A stretch of 64,000 nucleotides of DNA, from positions 372,001 to 436,000 of the forward strand of contig NZ_JACOFT010000003.1 of the NCBI RefSeq assembly GCF_014699135.1, in the 5' to 3' direction. Within the stretch, counting starts at the first letter, position 1; each line of letters begins with the position of its first letter. Made by a program: the position numbers and the translations under genes. The notes below the pieces were generated by a model that worked only from the letters and a program-made list of their open reading frames with translations, searched no databases and was not told the DNA's origin. The stretch comes from Cognatundibacterium aquatile. GTDB lineage: Bacteria > Pseudomonadota > Gammaproteobacteria > Burkholderiales > Burkholderiaceae_D. Positions 6,928 to 59,425 of this stretch are shown in pieces.

Positions 6928-7288
6928 TGGTGGAGTCGGCGGGAATCGAACCCGCGTCCAGAAGCACTCTACAGACAGTTCTACATACTTAGTGCTGCCA
7001 TTTAATTTAATCCAGACGACGCGGACGCACACGCTGCGGCTGGACGAGTTACCTTTGATTTAATCCCGAGCCAAGTAACCCGATTCAGGACGATTCCCTA
7101 TGAATGACTCTACTGCTGTTGCCAGCCCGCCCTAGGGAAGAGGCGGTGTAGAGTTAGCAAGCAATTAAGCTGCTAATGCGTACGAGTTATCGTTTGCAGT
7201 TATATAGTTCAGATTGTATTTACGAGGTAGTCTGGCCTCGGTATGCCCTGCGCTGCTTTGCAACCCCTGTCGAAACCAGGTCGACCCC
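6928..7288 (-). ncRNA. ssrA: Transfer-messenger RNA (tmRNA), one-piece
   Basis: Read on the minus strand, the RNA begins GGGGTCGACCTGGTTTCGAC and ends with a tRNA-like T arm (GCGGGTTCGATTCCCGC) and CGACTCCACCA. GGGGTCG and CGACTCC form the seven-pair acceptor stem. The length of about 361 nt is normal for a one-piece tmRNA, and 5' and 3' halves are in ordinary order, so it is not circularly permuted. tmRNA with SmpB rescues stalled ribosomes and tags their peptides for proteolysis. The 3' end is a frequent integrase target, and accessory genes with a phage lysozyme remnant lie immediately beyond it. Confidence 0.95.
7165..7197 (-). CDS. tmRNA proteolysis tag reading frame
   Basis: Within ssrA, the resume codon region translates as GCA AAC GAT AAC TCG TAC GCA TTA GCA GCT TAA, giving ANDNSYALAA. 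The final ALAA is the degradation signal read by ClpXP/ClpAP, as in the E. coli tag ANDENYALAA, and AND at the start is also conserved. Confidence 0.9.
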   Translation of the reverse strand, partial: ANDNSYALAA

Positions 7289-16632: not shown

Positions 16633-17970
16633 ATGACCCAACAAAGCAAACACTATCCGCCATACATTGATTTGCAGCCAATAATGCAGGTGCAGGGCAC
16701 GGTGCGCTTGCCCGGCTCCAAGAGTATTTCCAATCGCACCTTGCTGCTCGCAGCACTGGCGCAGGGGACGACGGAAATCAAAGATTTACTGGCATCCGAC
16801 GACACGCTGGTAATGCTGAATGCTTTGCAACAACTGGGCGTGCACTGGGAACAGGAAGGTGATAGCCAGAACTACACGGTCCGCGGTGTTAACGGTCAGC
16901 TTCCCCGCCATCAGGCCGATTTGTTCATGGGAAATGCAGGCACTGCGATTCGCCCATTGGTCGCAACGCTGGCAGTGCTGGGCGGTGATTATACTGTGCA
17001 TGGCGTGGCGCGTATGCATGAGCGGCCGATTGGCGATCTGGTCGATGCCCTGAATGCCGCTGGTGCGCAGGTCGAGTACACCGGCAATCCTGGCTATCCG
17101 CCTTTACACATTCGTCGTGGCCATATTCATGCGCAGCGTTTACAAGTCAAAGGCAATGTCTCCAGCCAGTTTCTGACGGCCTTGCTGATGGCGGCGCCAT
17201 TAATGGCGAAAGAGCATGACATCGTGATTGATGTCGTTGGTGAATTAATTTCCAAGCCGTATATTGAAATCACGCTGAATCTGATGCAGCGTTTTGGCGT
17301 TGCCGTCGAACGCGATGGCTGGCAGGCGTTCACCGTCAAACGTGGGCAGCATTATGTGTCGCCGGGCGTGGTGCATGTTGAAGGGGACGCTTCGTCTGCT
17401 TCCTACTTTCTGGCCGCTGGCGCTATTGCAGGCGGGCAGGTGCGGGTGGAAGGCGTCGGGCGCGACAGCATACAGGGCGATGTTCGCTTTGCCGAAGCGC
17501 TGGAAAAAATGGGGGCAACCATCACCCGTGGCGATAACTGGATAGAAGCCACGTCGAATGGCGCATTGCAGGCGATAGACATGGATTTCAACCACATCCC
17601 TGACGCCGCGATGACGATCGCAATGGCGGCCTTGTATGCAAATGGCACCACGACGCTGCGCAATATTGCGAGTTGGCGCGTCAAAGAGACTGATCGTCTG
17701 TCGGCGATGGCGACAGAATTAAGGAAACTCGGCGCAACCGTGGAAGAGGGCGCGGATTACATGCGTGTCACGCCACCGGCGCAGATCTTGCCCGCGACCA
17801 TCGATACCTATGATGATCACCGTATGGCGATGTGCTTTTCGCTTGCCAGTCTGGATGGCAAGGCGCGGCGCGGCGCAGCGATGCGGATTAACGAACCGCA
17901 TTGCGTCGCCAAGACTTTCCCTGATTATTTTGAGGTTTTTGCCAAAATCAACCATCAGGAGCTGTTTTAA
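16633..17970 (+). CDS. aroA: 3-phosphoshikimate 1-carboxyvinyltransferase (EPSP synthase)
   Basis: A 445-residue enzyme from ATG 16633 ([14 protein letters not shown]). A longer in-frame start at 16567 would run through intergenic sequence. Motifs: [18 protein letters not shown] (S3P/PEP-binding Lys-Ser), [18 protein letters not shown] (the conserved GNAGTAxRP), [52 protein letters not shown] and [11 protein letters not shown]. It joins PEP to shikimate-3-phosphate in the chorismate pathway. The NAGTA and SKS context looks like class I enzyme. The last base of its TAA stop is the first base of the repeat element filling the aroA-cmk junction. Confidence 0.96.
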
Positions 17971-18041
17971 TACTCCCCCCAGTATATAAAAACGGCCTTT
18001 GTTTATGCCGACAATAGAGCAAAATTGAAGGATACTCCCCC
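17970..18041 (+). repeat. Dispersed G/C-tract repeat, copy A (aroA-cmk junction)
   Basis: Left module ATACT-CCCCCC-AGTAT at 17970-17985. Interior GGCCTTTGTTT..GACAATAGAGCAAAA. Right module ATACTCCCCC at 18032-18041. Interior and right end run in the same sense as copies B and C, but the left core is C6, not G6. Here the left and right ends are therefore direct repeats rather than inverted. The element fits exactly between the aroA stop and the cmk start, and contributes the cmk ribosome binding site (GAAGGA, 18027-18032). Confidence 0.8.
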
Positions 18042-18044
18042 AAA

Positions 18045-18725
18045 ATGACAAATAAGTATGCCGTAATTACGATTGATGGACCGACTGCTTCCGGTAAAGG
18101 AACCGTCGCCCATCGCGTTGCCAAACATCTGGGTTTTCATTATCTCGATTCTGGCGCGTTGTACCGCTTAACTGCTCTGATGGTGCAACGCAAAAATGTC
18201 TCGTTTGACGATGAAACCAGCATTGCTGCATTGGCACGCGCCTTGCCCTGTCGTTTCGTCCACGGCCACGTCATGCTGGAAGACGACGATGTGACTGACG
18301 ATGTGCGCGCCGAAGCGATAGGCGTTGCCGCATCACGCATAGCGGTGCTGCCGGAAGTGCGCAAAGCTTTGGTGGACTTGCAATTGTCGTTCCGCAATGC
18401 TCCCGGCCTGGTGGCGGACGGGCGTGATATGGGTAGTGTGATTTTCCCCGATGCCAGTCTCAAAATTTTCCTGACAGCAAGTGCAGAGGCGCGCGCGAGT
18501 CGTCGATATAAGCAATTGATTGAAAAGGGAATTTCTGCTAATATGGAAGACTTGGTAAAAGATTTGATGGAACGTGATGCGAGAGACAGTACCCGCGCAG
18601 CCGCTCCACTCAAACCTGCATCAGGTGCAATTATTCTGGATACCTCAGAAATTACTGCTGAACAAGCGGTGAATCAGGTGCTGGAATGGTATGCAGAAGC
18701 ACAGGAAAGCAAGTCGTCTCAATAG
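18045..18725 (+). CDS. cmk: Cytidylate kinase
   Basis: A 226-residue P-loop kinase that phosphorylates CMP and dCMP. Walker A is [17 protein letters not shown] at the N-terminus; LDSGALYRL is the CMP-binding DSGALYR motif; [24 protein letters not shown] is the DGRDxGTVxFPxAxxKxFLxAS signature, and [13 protein letters not shown] the lid. The length is normal. The only ribosome binding site (GAAGGA) is 12 bases from the ATG with the C-tract of repeat copy A in the spacer, which is unusually long and could make initiation sensitive to folding of the repeat (inference). Confidence 0.95.
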
Positions 18726-32921: not shown

Positions 32922-33860
32922 ATGACAACCGCGTATTACACCCATGCAGATTGCAAACGCCATGAAATGGGATCATGGCATCCGGAATCACCAGAACGTT
33001 TGCAGGCGATAGAAGACCAACTGATCGCCAGCCGCATCAGCACCTTGCTGGATCACCGCGATGCGCCGTCGGCAGAAGAAAGTGACTTAGCGCGGGTGCA
33101 CACAGCGGACGCGATTTACCGGATACGCGAAAATTGTCCGTCCGAACATTCCGAATACGATCACTTTCCACTCGATGCCGACACTGCTTTAAATAGCTAC
33201 ACCTGGCGTGCCTGTCTGCGCGCGGCAGGGGCGGCGATCGCCGCAACTGATGCGGTGATCGATGCCGAAATCGAAAATGCTTTTTGCGCGGTACGGCCAC
33301 CGGGACATCATGCCAGCCGCAAAGAATCGATGGGATTCTGTATGTTTAACAACGTCGCGATTGCTGCCCGTCATGCGCTCGATGTGCGCGGCTTGCAGCG
33401 TGTTGCCATCGTTGATTTCGACGTGCATCACGGCAATGGCACCGAAGATATTTTCCGTGATGACCCGCAAGTGCTGATGGTGAGTTTTTTTCAGCATCCT
33501 TTTTATCCGTATTCCGGCGATAGCGAACCGGCCAGTAATATGGTCAACGTGCCCGTCCCGGCGCACAGCTATGGCGATGTGATCCGCACGCTGGTCACTG
33601 AAAAATGGTTGCCAGCCTTGCGCGCATTTCAGCCGGAAATGATTTTTATCTCGGCCGGGTTTGATGCGCACCGCGAAGACGATATGGGGCAACTGGGGCT
33701 GACGGAAGCCGATTTCGCCTGGCTGACCAGGCAGGTGATGGCGGTCGCGAAAGACTATTCCAAAGGCCGCATCGTCAGTTGTCTGGAAGGCGGCTACAAC
33801 CTCTCGGCGCTCGCCCGCAGCGTGACTGCGCATTTGAAAGTTCTTGCTGATCTTGAATAA
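32922..33860 (+). CDS. Histone deacetylase family protein (acetylpolyamine amidohydrolase / class II HDAC-like)
   Basis: A 312-residue zinc amidohydrolase from ATG 32922 (MTTAYYTHADCKRHEMGSWHPESPERL). The tandem catalytic His pair is in RPPGHHASRKESMGFCMFNNVAIAARHAL. Zinc ligands are in IVDFDVHHGNGTEDIF (Asp, His) and SAGFDAHREDDMGQL (Asp), and the C-terminal CLEGGYN carries the glycine-rich loop. Bacterial members remove acetyl groups from small amides or proteins; the substrate is not known here. It is divergent from moxR with a short 142-bp spacer. Repeat copy B lies 42 bp past the stop. Confidence 0.92.
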   Translation: MTTAYYTHADCKRHEMGSWHPESPERLQAIEDQLIASRISTLLDHRDAPSAEESDLARVHTADAIYRIRENCPSEHSEYDHFPLDADTALNSYTWRACLRAAGAAIAATDAVIDAEIENAFCAVRPPGHHASRKESMGFCMFNNVAIAARHALDVRGLQRVAIVDFDVHHGNGTEDIFRDDPQVLMVSFFQHPFYPYSGDSEPASNMVNVPVPAHSYGDVIRTLVTEKWLPALRAFQPEMIFISAGFDAHREDDMGQLGLTEADFAWLTRQVMAVAKDYSKGRIVSCLEGGYNLSALARSVTAHLKVLADLE

Positions 33861-33902
33861 ATGACGGCAAGCCATCGTTTTTCTGCTGTTTTGCCTCTTT
33901 AA

Positions 33903-33973
33903 ATACTGGGGGGAGTATTCTGCAAAGCCCTTTGTTTGTAAGGACAATTGAGCAAAAACGGCAGATACTCCCC
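33903..33973 (+). repeat. Dispersed G/C-tract repeat, copy B
   Basis: Left module ATACT-GGGGGG-AGTAT at 33903-33918; interior AAAGCCCTTTGTTT..GGACAATTGAGCAAAA; right module ATACTCCCC at 33965-33973 followed by a T-run. Here the left GGGGAGTAT and right ATACTCCCC are inverted, so the whole 71-bp element can fold into a long hairpin with a loop of about 46 bases and, with the T-run, could act as a terminator for the HDAC-like gene. Confidence 0.8.
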
Positions 33974-34224
33974 TTTTTTCTTTAAAAAGATAGTTTTTCC
34001 GGCAGTTTTTCAGTAACTGATAAAAAACGCCGGTGGCTTTCTGAATGGCGTTGTGCCCGTGCTGTTATCTGCAAATTGGTTTCGTTGCAGGTTGGCGACA
34101 AAATGATGTCAATGACGATATCGTTTCAAACTTCTTTAACATTTGTACGCTGTTATTCCGCCGGCATACTCCTTACACTCAGCATCGTTTACTTTATTCG
34201 TATGTATTCGTATCGCATTTGCGG
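33974..34224. other. Leader/promoter stretch before the riboswitch
   Basis: About 250 bp between repeat copy B and the riboswitch. It contains AT-rich sequence suited to the promoter of the riboswitch-protease transcript. No gene or further repeat is recognised. Confidence 0.4.
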
Positions 34225-34325
34225 TGCGACGATTCTGAGGGCAAATCTGTCGAAAGGCAGAGACGCAAAGCCTCCGGCCTACAGCGCTGACGCGCCACGG
34301 TAGCGGGGTTGCTGACTATCCTGTG
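34225..34325 (+). promoter_or_regulatory. Cyclic-di-GMP-I (GEMM) riboswitch
   Basis: The GEMM-I hallmarks appear in order: AGGGCAAATCTG, a GAAA tetraloop, GACGCAAAGCCTCCGGCCTA (tetraloop receptor and P3 start), and CACGGTAGCGGGGTTGCTGAC closing P3. P2 pairs TCTG with CAGA around TCGAAAGG. It ends about 50 bp before the S53 protease start, so c-di-GMP should control that gene. Whether it turns expression on or off cannot be read, because I see no clear terminator hairpin in the remaining leader. Confidence 0.92.
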
Positions 34326-34376: not shown

Positions 34377-36749
34377 ATGCCTGTCACCAAACCTGTCCCC
34401 CGGATTCTTACTGCCAGTCTGCTTGCCTTGCTGAGTGCCTGTGGCAGTAATTCTGATAATGCGTCGCTGAATCAGGCACCTGCCGCGATTGCGACTGCGA
34501 CCACGACACTCAGTGCGGATGTTGTCCAATTGCCGGAAACGGCAGCGTCGCAGATAGCACAACCGACATTTCACGTTGCCCCTGTGTTGCTCGATACGCC
34601 AACCGATATCGATGCGTTGAACAGCAGCGCGTCGGCACTGATGGGGCCGCGTCAACAGGCGATACCGGAAGAATTTCAGCAATTATCCGATCGTGGCCTG
34701 ACCGTGACTGCGATGCAGGAAGTGCAGGCGCAACAGGGCGCGCAGGGGGCACGTGTGCGCTCTTTACCGGGTAACAGCGTGATACAACCGCAAGCCACGT
34801 CCAGCGTGGTATCGACTTATACGCCGGCGCAAATCCGTGCGGCATACGGTCTTGCAGCTCTGCCTGCAAGCATGACCGGGCTGACAGCCGCACAGGCCGC
34901 GCAACTTGGCGCAGGACAAACGATTTATATCGTCGATGCGTATCACGATCCGAATGTTGCCGCCGAACTGGCGGCGTTTAATCAAAAATTCGGTTTGCCT
35001 GGTTGTACTGCGAAAACTCTGGCGGCCACCAGCGCCTTGCCGTTGGCAGCACCGGCGACCAACGCTTGTGAATTAGTGCTTGCCTACAACACCGCAAGCG
35101 GTACACTGACTGGCACTGCTCCAGCATACAACTCTGGCTGGGCGACTGAGATCACACTCGATGTGCAGTGGGCGCATGCAACTGCACCGCTGGCACGCAT
35201 CGTTCTGATCGAGGCCGCCGATGCTTCGCTGAATAGCTTACTCGGTGCGGTCAAACTGGCGAACGCGATGGGGCCGGGCGTGGTGTCGATGAGTTTCGGC
35301 GCGGCAGAAGGTAACTGGACAGCGTCGGTCGATGCTGCTTTCAGTGCCGCCAAAATGACGTATCTGGCAGCGACCGGTGATTCCGGTGCTGCCGTCAGCT
35401 GGCCTTCGGTTTCGCCTTATGTGGTGGCGGTTGGCGGCACTTCACTGACGTATTCCGGCAGCGGCGCGCGGGTTGAAAGCGGCTGGTCAGGTACTGGTGG
35501 CGGCACTAGCGCCTACACGGCTTTGCCGGCTTATCAGAACAGCAGCGTTCCCGGCATGGGCACGCTTGCCCGTCGCACTGTCGCCGACGTAGCGTTCAAT
35601 GCGGACCCATCGACTGGTCAGTATGTGGCTGTCATCAACCCAGGTAGCGCAACGGTCAACTGGATCAGCGCCGGTGGCACCAGCTTATCGACGCCACAAT
35701 GGGCGGGTATCGTCGCGGTGGCAAATGCGACCCGCGCGCAACTGGCAAAAGCCCCGCTGGGCCAGCCACACAGCCTGTTGTATGGTCAGATTTCTACCGT
35801 GCCGGGAACGTATGCCAGCACGTTTGCTGACATTACCAAAGGCTCAGACGGAACCTGTGCCAGCTGCTACGCGAAGACGGGTTACGATCAACTGACGGGT
35901 CTGGGGACGCCGAACATCGGTAATCTGATCAGCACGCTGACAGGAACTGCAATCGCGCCGACTGCACCGGTGGTGACTGGCGCTGCGATCAGCGGGCAGG
36001 TTGGTACAGCATTGACTTTCACTGTTTCGGCAACGGCAACAAATCCGCTGACGTATGCGCTGAGCGGTGCACCGTCGGGTATGACGATTGCCAGCACAGG
36101 CGTCGTGACATGGACGACACCTGTCGCGGGAACCTATGCGGTGACGGTCACTGCAACCGATAGCAAAACAGCGCTGAGTGGCAAAGCGGTTTACAACATC
36201 ACGATTGCTGCGGCGAAGGCACCGGTGGTGACGGGCGGCACGATCAGTGCGAAAGCAGGCACACCGTTGTCATTCTCTGTCGTGCTGACTGCTGCTAACC
36301 CTGTGACGTATAGCCTCAGTGGCGCACCGGCCGGTATGGCGGTCAGCACCAGCGGTGTCGTCAGCTGGGCAGCGCCAGTAGTCGGTACATATAACGTGAC
36401 TGCGATCGCCAAGGACAGCAAAACAGGACTCAGCGGTCAGGCGGTATACACCATTGTTGTGTCGGCAGCGGTAGTCAGTGGTCCTGTGATTACGGCTCCA
36501 GCGATGACCGGTGTGGCAGGTAAAGCGCTGACAGGGCAGATCAGTATTTCTGATCCGGGCGTCAGCTGGGTATCGATATCGATTTCCGGCGTGCCTCTGG
36601 GGATGAGTTTTTCCATGAGCAGTAGTCTGGCGATCACCGCCAGCTGGCCAGCGCCAGTTACCGGCAGCTATACCCTGAAAGTCGTGGTGACCGATTCCGC
36701 CGGACGCACGGCACAGGCATCGGTGCCAGTCACGATTACAGCGAAGTAA
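34377..36749 (+). CDS. Secreted S53 (sedolisin/kumamolisin-like) peptidase lipoprotein with Ig-like repeats
   Basis: A 790-residue exported protein. The N-terminus has a lipobox (LLALLSACGS, Cys22). The catalytic part (about 145-520) shows the sedolisin triad: Glu258 and Asp262 in WATEITLDVQWA, the oxyanion Asp335 in ATGDSG and the nucleophile Ser436 in SAGGTSLSTPQWAG. A calcium site of the type ADITKGSDG...GYDQLTGLGTP lies at its end. The pro-domain is short. Three Ig-like/He_PIG repeats follow (from about 525, 608 and 695; PVVTG..ISGQVGTALTFTVSATATNPLTYALSGAPSGM is the first). Expected at the cell surface as an acid-type serine peptidase. Riboswitch control suggests a role in surface attachment or dispersal (inference). 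Confidence 0.9.
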   Translation: MPVTKPVPRILTASLLALLSACGSNSDNASLNQAPAAIATATTTLSADVVQLPETAASQIAQPTFHVAPVLLDTPTDIDALNSSASALMGPRQQAIPEEFQQLSDRGLTVTAMQEVQAQQGAQGARVRSLPGNSVIQPQATSSVVSTYTPAQIRAAYGLAALPASMTGLTAAQAAQLGAGQTIYIVDAYHDPNVAAELAAFNQKFGLPGCTAKTLAATSALPLAAPATNACELVLAYNTASGTLTGTAPAYNSGWATEITLDVQWAHATAPLARIVLIEAADASLNSLLGAVKLANAMGPGVVSMSFGAAEGNWTASVDAAFSAAKMTYLAATGDSGAAVSWPSVSPYVVAVGGTSLTYSGSGARVESGWSGTGGGTSAYTALPAYQNSSVPGMGTLARRTVADVAFNADPSTGQYVAVINPGSATVNWISAGGTSLSTPQWAGIVAVANATRAQLAKAPLGQPHSLLYGQISTVPGTYASTFADITKGSDGTCASCYAKTGYDQLTGLGTPNIGNLISTLTGTAIAPTAPVVTGAAISGQVGTALTFTVSATATNPLTYALSGAPSGMTIASTGVVTWTTPVAGTYAVTVTATDSKTALSGKAVYNITIAAAKAPVVTGGTISAKAGTPLSFSVVLTAANPVTYSLSGAPAGMAVSTSGVVSWAAPVVGTYNVTAIAKDSKTGLSGQAVYTIVVSAAVVSGPVITAPAMTGVAGKALTGQISISDPGVSWVSISISGVPLGMSFSMSSSLAITASWPAPVTGSYTLKVVVTDSAGRTAQASVPVTITAK

Positions 36750-37949: not shown

Positions 37950-38023
37950 ATACTGGGGGGAGTATATTTTAAAGCCCTTTATTTACTTAGAGATTAAGGC
38001 AAAAATCGCATATACCCCCCTAT
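37950..38023 (+). repeat. Dispersed G/C-tract repeat, copy C
   Basis: Left module ATACT-GGGGGG-AGTAT at 37950-37965; interior AAAGCCCTTTATTT..GAGATTAAGGCAAAAA; right module ATA-CCCCCC-TAT at 38012-38023. It lies between the exported hypothetical gene and ylqF, about 110 bp before the ylqF start. The right module has lost the CT of ATACT compared with copies A and B. Confidence 0.8.
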
Positions 38024-59347: not shown

Positions 59348-59425
59348 ATACTCCCCGGAGTATGTATACAAGCCCAATGTTTCTGCTGAGATTTGGGGTG
59401 TTTTGCTAAAAACAGGGGGGAGTAT
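59348..59425 (+). repeat. Dispersed G/C-tract repeat, copy D (divergent)
   Basis: Left module ATACT-CCCCGG-AGTAT at 59348-59363; interior ACAAGCCCAATGTTT..GAGATT, with an extra GGGGTG insertion; right module GGGGGGAGTAT at 59415-59425. Compared with copies A to C the right module is inverted. Here left ATACTCCCC and right GGGGAGTAT are inverted, so the element can still fold on itself. It is the most divergent copy. Confidence 0.65.

Follow-up and report, generated by a model that had tools for sequence, protein, structure and literature searches.

The repeat found at four sites in the window (the whole analysed stretch, 64,000 nucleotides) belongs to a large and old family of intergenic elements in Undibacterium and some of its relatives, each composed of a palindrome (P) and a half palindrome (R) held at a fixed distance. 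These two small parts are kept almost unchanged in the copies compared, and hence probably do a job. Copy number, architecture, position and conservation were observed directly in the genomes. Our tentative reading, which we regard as a serious possibility short of an even chance, is a REP-like element held by selection, with a putative host protein on P and R near gene ends.

Copies in the window

All four copies of the initial annotation stand where it placed them, and their left module, ATACT-S6-AGTAT, is exact in each (Table 1). At up to two mismatches this pattern has five matches in the window against 0.29 expected, a number equalled in 0 of 100 shuffles. The right module, described at first as a G/C tract, is really one half of the left palindrome about 62 bp further on; it reads ATACTCCCC in copies 1 and 2, ATACCCCCC in copy 3 and GGGGAGTAT in copy 4, and positions 59410-59425 at copy 4 resemble P with two mismatches. 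The related interior quoted for the family holds for copies 1 and 2, and copies 3 and 4 differ from it. By our own ORF calls copies 2, 3 and 4 lie outside genes as claimed; copy 1 shares its first base with the end of the aroA stop codon, and 3-4 bp separate it from the cmk start codon at 18045.

Table 1. Modules of the four copies, in window coordinates
Feature	Position	Strand	Remarks
Copy 1 (type D), palindrome P, core CCCCCC	17970..17985	+	read from the sequence; first base is also the final one of the aroA stop codon
Copy 1, half-site R (ATACTCCCCC)	18032..18041	+	62 bp after P
Copy 2 (type D), palindrome P, core GGGGGG	33903..33918	+	junction also occupied in G021 and G028
Copy 2, interior, 46 bp	33919..33964	+	46 or 47 bp in 82/82 type D copies
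Copy 2, half-site R (ATACTCCCC)	33965..33973	+	
Copy 3 (type D), palindrome P, core GGGGGG	37950..37965	+	junction also occupied in G028, G021 and G030
Copy 3, half-site R (ATACCCCCC, one change)	38012..38020	+	
Copy 4 (type I), palindrome P, core CCCCGG	59348..59363	+	
Copy 4, half-site R in opposite orientation (GGGGAGTAT)	59417..59425	+	

Two known RNA features also lie in the window: a c-di-GMP-I riboswitch aptamer at 34230-34316 (+; Rfam E=7.1e-14), between copy 2 and the ORF at 34377-36749, and a tmRNA gene at 6928-7288 (-; Rfam E=1.5e-85).

Size and architecture of the family

The source genome (G000; 3.9 Mb, 17 contigs) contains 91 exact ATACT-S6-AGTAT palindromes, against 0 for the pattern read backwards as a control. 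Profile R1, built from 19 copies (alignment A1), gives at least 150 matches there at E<=0.01, 150 of 1404 first-look candidates having been scored. The genome-wide family anticipated from four copies therefore exists, and further copies were detected both in the genome (R1) and in relatives (R1, and R2, a profile built from 48 diverse copies, alignment A2). Counts of anatomy and position are based on 132 non-redundant copies read from G000; nhmmer matches below 26 bits, mostly the palindrome read backwards, were left out of this set.

All 132 copies consist of P plus R at a fixed distance. In type D (82/132), R is ATAC[TC]CCC and starts 46 bp after P in 73 copies and 47 bp in nine. In type I (50/132), it is GGG[AG]GTAT and ends 62 bp after P in 46 copies and 61 or 63 bp in four. 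The search windows for R allowed many other positions besides those found. Both geometries set the half palindrome about 62 bp, or about six helical turns, from P. Over the 132 copies, P extends as TAAATATACT-S6-AGTATATTTA, with weaker conservation for about 20 bp past each end, so that the element is about 110 bp long and exceeds the 71-78 bp first assigned to it.

Within the core of P, C6 and G6 are the commonest forms and mixed C-then-G forms come next; G precedes C in 0/132 copies. The two core halves are related to the orientation of R: the 5' half is CCC in 37/82 D and 40/50 I copies (p=1e-4), and the 3' half is GGG in 45/82 D and 15/50 I copies (p=0.007). In G015 and G035, where three of the 60 parsed copies had no R type and were left out of the tally, 5' CC is present in 1/22 D and 16/35 I copies (p=9e-4), and the 3' G showed no coupling to type (5/22 D, 6/35 I; p=0.73). 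The P core of these two genomes is not C/G-rich, hence the pair is not simply one site repeated as P and R. Inversion of a hairpin loop was considered as the source of G6 and C6 cores, and no flip was seen among the orthologous pairs inspected by eye.

A type I subfamily with a CCCAATGTTT..GGGGTGTTTT interior and longer shared flanks occurs in local clusters (L105, G000:C1:64100-71000; L088; L002), and is perhaps a later amplification.

Conservation at orthologous sites

Undibacterium rivi FT147W (G028) is about 91% identical to G000 over the region compared, and carries the element at the same junction for 20 of the 22 copies with both flanks mapped to one stretch. The two exceptions are copy 4 of the window, where 7.7 kb separate the G028 flanks, and locus L112 (3.3 kb, no copy found). 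At the site of copy 4 (59348-59425, type I here), G028 has a type D element beside one flank (L138, 1218-1304); this locus is a rearrangement with an endpoint near the element.

Substitutions were counted in the 20 of 132 copies for which one G028 alignment, at about 90% identity, spans the element and 30 bp on both sides. In these orthologous pairs, 2/200 positions are substituted in the P arms, 3/125 in the P core and 2/180 in R, against 83/991 in the interior, 116/795 in the 20-bp flanks and 1449/14680 in the outer flanks. Arms and R together are thus 1% substituted and the interior 8% (p=2e-8), with 15% in the adjacent flanks. Since the copies were identified in G000, substitutions on that lineage are counted too low; P arms (p=6e-5) and R (p=3e-4) remain conserved when the flank rate used for comparison is halved, which is the most unfavourable case for such ascertainment. 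The interior, too, changes more slowly than the flanks (p=4e-5). These rates support the earlier suggestion of selection on the modules, and the view that the copies are not recent duplicates is upheld as well. Gene conversion between copies could add to the conservation.

More diverged genomes also share junctions. In counterparts of window positions 15-40 kb, whose coding matches are about 70-85% identical, copies 1, 2 and 3 are present at the same junctions in G021, copies 1 and 3 in U. griseum FT31W (G030), and copy 1 in G013. In a separate case, one copy with its right flank is nearly identical by eye between G000 and G003 (L093 near 1060, L195 near 1500), against coding matches about 67-80% identical, which reflects either horizontal transfer or a highly conserved gap.

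The junction of aroA and cmk, which holds copy 1, was followed across 40 matched genomes. These gave 30 loci, ten genomes giving none; 11 of the 30 showed another stretch, and the remaining 19 together with G021 (one of the 11, read instead from L164) made 20 readable junctions. The element is present in seven (G000, G028, G023, G013, G030, G021 and G020) and not visible in 13, with aroA and cmk almost adjacent in G011, G014, G016 and G022. All seven filled sites keep P-like and ATACTCCC modules, 46-49 bp apart (spacings by eye), around a diverged interior. The P arms have one change each in G021, G023 and G020, and ATACTCC is missing from P in G020. Comparison of filled and empty alleles by eye revealed no obvious target duplication, and the ends of the element are not sharply defined.

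Position relative to genes and terminators

None of the 132 copies overlaps a called gene, genes being our own ORF calls by codon usage. The gaps that hold them are convergent in 32 cases, divergent in 10, tandem in 80 and unresolved in 10. The median distance to gene 3' ends is 72 bp, and that to 5' ends is 177 bp (p=4e-7). Of the 80 elements in tandem gaps, 54 are closer to the 3' end; 41 are sense and 39 antisense. Among gaps of at least 60 bp in G015, an element is present in 12/44 convergent, 3/45 divergent and 32/133 tandem gaps (overall p=0.026; convergent against divergent, p=0.011). G028 showed no convergent preference (4/30 against 3/40 divergent gaps, p=0.45; overall p=0.59).

Other intrinsic terminators, called with a simple finder of our own, are rarer at gene 3' ends that face an element: 4/26 against 42/138 in G028 (p=0.15) and 5/56 against 32/150 in G015 (p=0.04), with a pooled p=0.0099. 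Together with the bias towards 3' ends, this scarcity of other terminators suggests a role at gene ends.

Polarity with respect to the replication strand was rejected, as neighbours in G000 are alike in 73/140 cases and the 132 copies have no GC-skew bias (p=0.47). G015 had given an initial hint of polarity (28/38 neighbours on the same strand; p=0.005, circular and post hoc); with more copies its strands look mixed by eye.

Folding and covariation

A role at gene ends could also be played by RNA. Transcripts of either strand would then fold, through a P hairpin, an interior hairpin and a long helix between P and R, and the fold would serve to terminate, process or protect the mRNA, a role proposed for REP/BIME. 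Such a 3'-end RNA element agrees with the position near 3' ends in either orientation, with the smaller number of other terminators in gaps with an element, and with the coupling of core side to R orientation, which would let one P arm pair with R. The folding itself agrees too: in a sample of 60 of the 132 elements, both strands folded better on average than their dinucleotide shuffles (mean z -1.84 to -2.92; upstream control -0.37 to -0.94), an outcome for which palindromes alone can suffice.

However, the patterns of variation gave no convincing sign of base pairing. No convincing Watson-Crick excess was found in the helices of the in-register subsets, which are small (66 D and 36 I), or in the interior hairpin of G015/G035 (78 pairs against 72.3 expected, sd 3.6; 31/62 copies parsed). 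In 19 copies RNAalifold recovered nothing beyond the invariant P arms, and no covariation. After average-product correction, mutual information picked out chiefly blocks of adjacent positions (CCC/GGG, AAA/TTT), and on these grounds RNA covariation was rejected. The proposed covariation of the G/C core with the right tract was likewise not seen as base pairing, though core side and R orientation are coupled. The AAA/TTT and CCC/GGG blocks alternate as units and combine almost freely, as they would if the properties of the duplex counted and not those of a single strand.

Moreover, the elements rarely resemble intrinsic terminators (a G/C-rich hairpin with a T run): among the 27 of G028 two do so on the + and two on the - strand (4/54 strand readings), and in G015 none of 48 elements does (0/96). 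Copy 1, of type D with a C core, is unable to form the long helix, yet it is kept in seven species. An RNA element is therefore in our judgement unlikely. The indifference to orientation, the fixed helical phase and the absence of covariation speak more for a DNA-bound protein than for an RNA fold; of the two targets of selection suggested at the outset, folding has mixed evidence and a protein site fits better.

Transposases and mobility

We are similarly doubtful of a non-autonomous transposable element, MITE- or REP-like, with ends recognised by a transposase and no host function. More than 100 dispersed similar copies, the two orientations of R, similar copies in local clusters, and an aroA-cmk junction filled in seven and without the element in 13 of 20 readable genomes all agree with mobility. 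Against it, 20/22 testable sites are common to U. rivi, and fixed copies without a host role should not keep P and R at 1% substitution. Six repeat-rich loci read by eye share no recurrent predicted gene that could be a partner.

The anticipated link to a TnpA(REP)-like transposase did not emerge in G000. Its one Y1_Tnp (PF01797) match adjoins gltB, scores 71 bits against the 80-bit NCBIfam cut-off for REP-associated transposases, and its 3.3-kb locus contains no P/R half-site copy. For this genome, linkage to a transposase of the RAYT kind was rejected. G021 does have one copy between the Y1 gene and gltB, and so, weakly, does G035.

The Y1_Tnp (RAYT-like) gene adjoins gltB in eight of the 12 Y1 loci fetched (from eight genomes, carriers and non-carriers of the element) and not in the other four. 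The gap between gltB and the Y1 gene contains a recurring TCTGACCC/GTCCCCAATTA motif by eye (L049 2080-2320; L048, L051-L055), and the G000 gene has this different motif, TCTGACCC, downstream. It is possibly the Y1 gene's own REP.

Chance or a compositional artefact is so improbable as to be negligible, given 91 palindromes against 0 in the reversed control, the fixed spacing and the conservation at orthologous sites.

Distribution across genomes

A repeat-derived pattern matched both U. rivi FT147W and U. griseum FT31W. Among 43 Undibacterium genomes, R1 has matches in 15 and R2 in 17, of which 16 have at least seven; the 26/43 without a match indicate that the role of the element is not essential to the genus. 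In a sample of 399 genomes of the order, R1 under stricter filters matched G000, G030 and, doubtfully, a third genome (E=4.9e-4), and no other. In a sample of 294 genomes of the family, R2 matched 16: ten Undibacterium, two of genus g192 (at least 17 matches each) and four of genus g169 (4-9 matches).

All 19 g192 copies read by eye are of type D and retain P as well as a stem-like inner segment; R is ATACCC in 19/19, at a similar distance, and P mostly keeps ATACT. In G003, R is ATACCCCC in 4/4 copies read, and ATACCCCC also occurs in P in three of these four.

The family had been described as not recognised, which holds for Rfam 15 and the searchable open-licence literature. Rfam 15 gave no match at the gathering score for any of the four copies, and none up to E=1 for 33800-34100. 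Copy 2 with its flanks had no match among plasmids and phages, and the open-licence literature yielded no account of a repeat of this kind in Undibacterium or relatives.

Discussion

Dispersed short repeats commonly pass for selfish debris, and it is an old debate whether they are kept up by a job in the host. In the family described here, conservation site by site with a drifting interior argues for a host role. A REP-like dispersed element may have spread through the genome in the past and would now be mostly inherited in place. Its working parts would be P (AAATATACT-N6-AGTATATTT, with N6 C/G-rich here) and the half-site R (ATACTCCC). Placed 62 bp, or six helical turns, from P, R would lie on the same face of the DNA and may point either way. 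A putative dimeric host DNA-binding protein would occupy P and contact R, and near the 3' ends of genes, whichever way the element points, the protein-DNA complex could act as, for instance, a roadblock to transcription or a domain boundary. We infer this protein, its bridging of P and R and its role at gene ends from genome comparison.

A further-reaching version, which we rate as improbable but worth stating, is a new gene-end boundary system, in which a putative architectural protein would read P and a half-site six turns away at more than 100 places per genome in either orientation. Its target would shift between species, R being ATACTCCC here, ATACCCCC in G003 and ATACCC in g192. At stake is whether such repeats can serve as a working gene-boundary system. 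With more than 100 copies, filled and empty alleles, and orthologous sites in diverged species, a host role can be tested copy by copy, on two small modules held at a fixed helical phase as the sequence between them drifts.

Comparison with known repeat classes

Correia/NEMIS, ERIC, BOX and RUP are modular intergenic repeats of about 100 bp with foldable modules. In the present elements no clear terminal inverted repeats of constant orientation and no target duplication were recognised. Noc and SlmA sites are many short palindromic single operators spread over the chromosome; compared with these, the elements here are longer, have a second half-site at a fixed phase and lie near gene 3' ends.

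REPs are among the nearest classes. According to Nunvar et al. (2010, PMC2817692), they usually exceed 100 copies per genome and are associated with RAYT genes that lie between two inverted REPs; they bind several proteins, and chromosome organisation or termination have been suggested as their roles. More than 100 short palindromic copies per genome outside genes is a likeness to REP/BIME as described there. The high copy number and extragenic position of RAYT-associated REPs are found here as well (at least 150 copies; 0/132 overlapping called genes). In contrast, the GT(A/G)G head and compact palindrome of the REP definition in that paper are absent from the 132-copy consensus read by eye, and no transposase gene lies between two inverted copies in G000. 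The elements here pair a palindrome with a half palindrome at a constant spacing of 62 bp. The family matches the REP class in scale and place, and departs from it in G000 in transposase and head sequence. It is best read as a REP-like dispersed element with a palindrome and half-site architecture.
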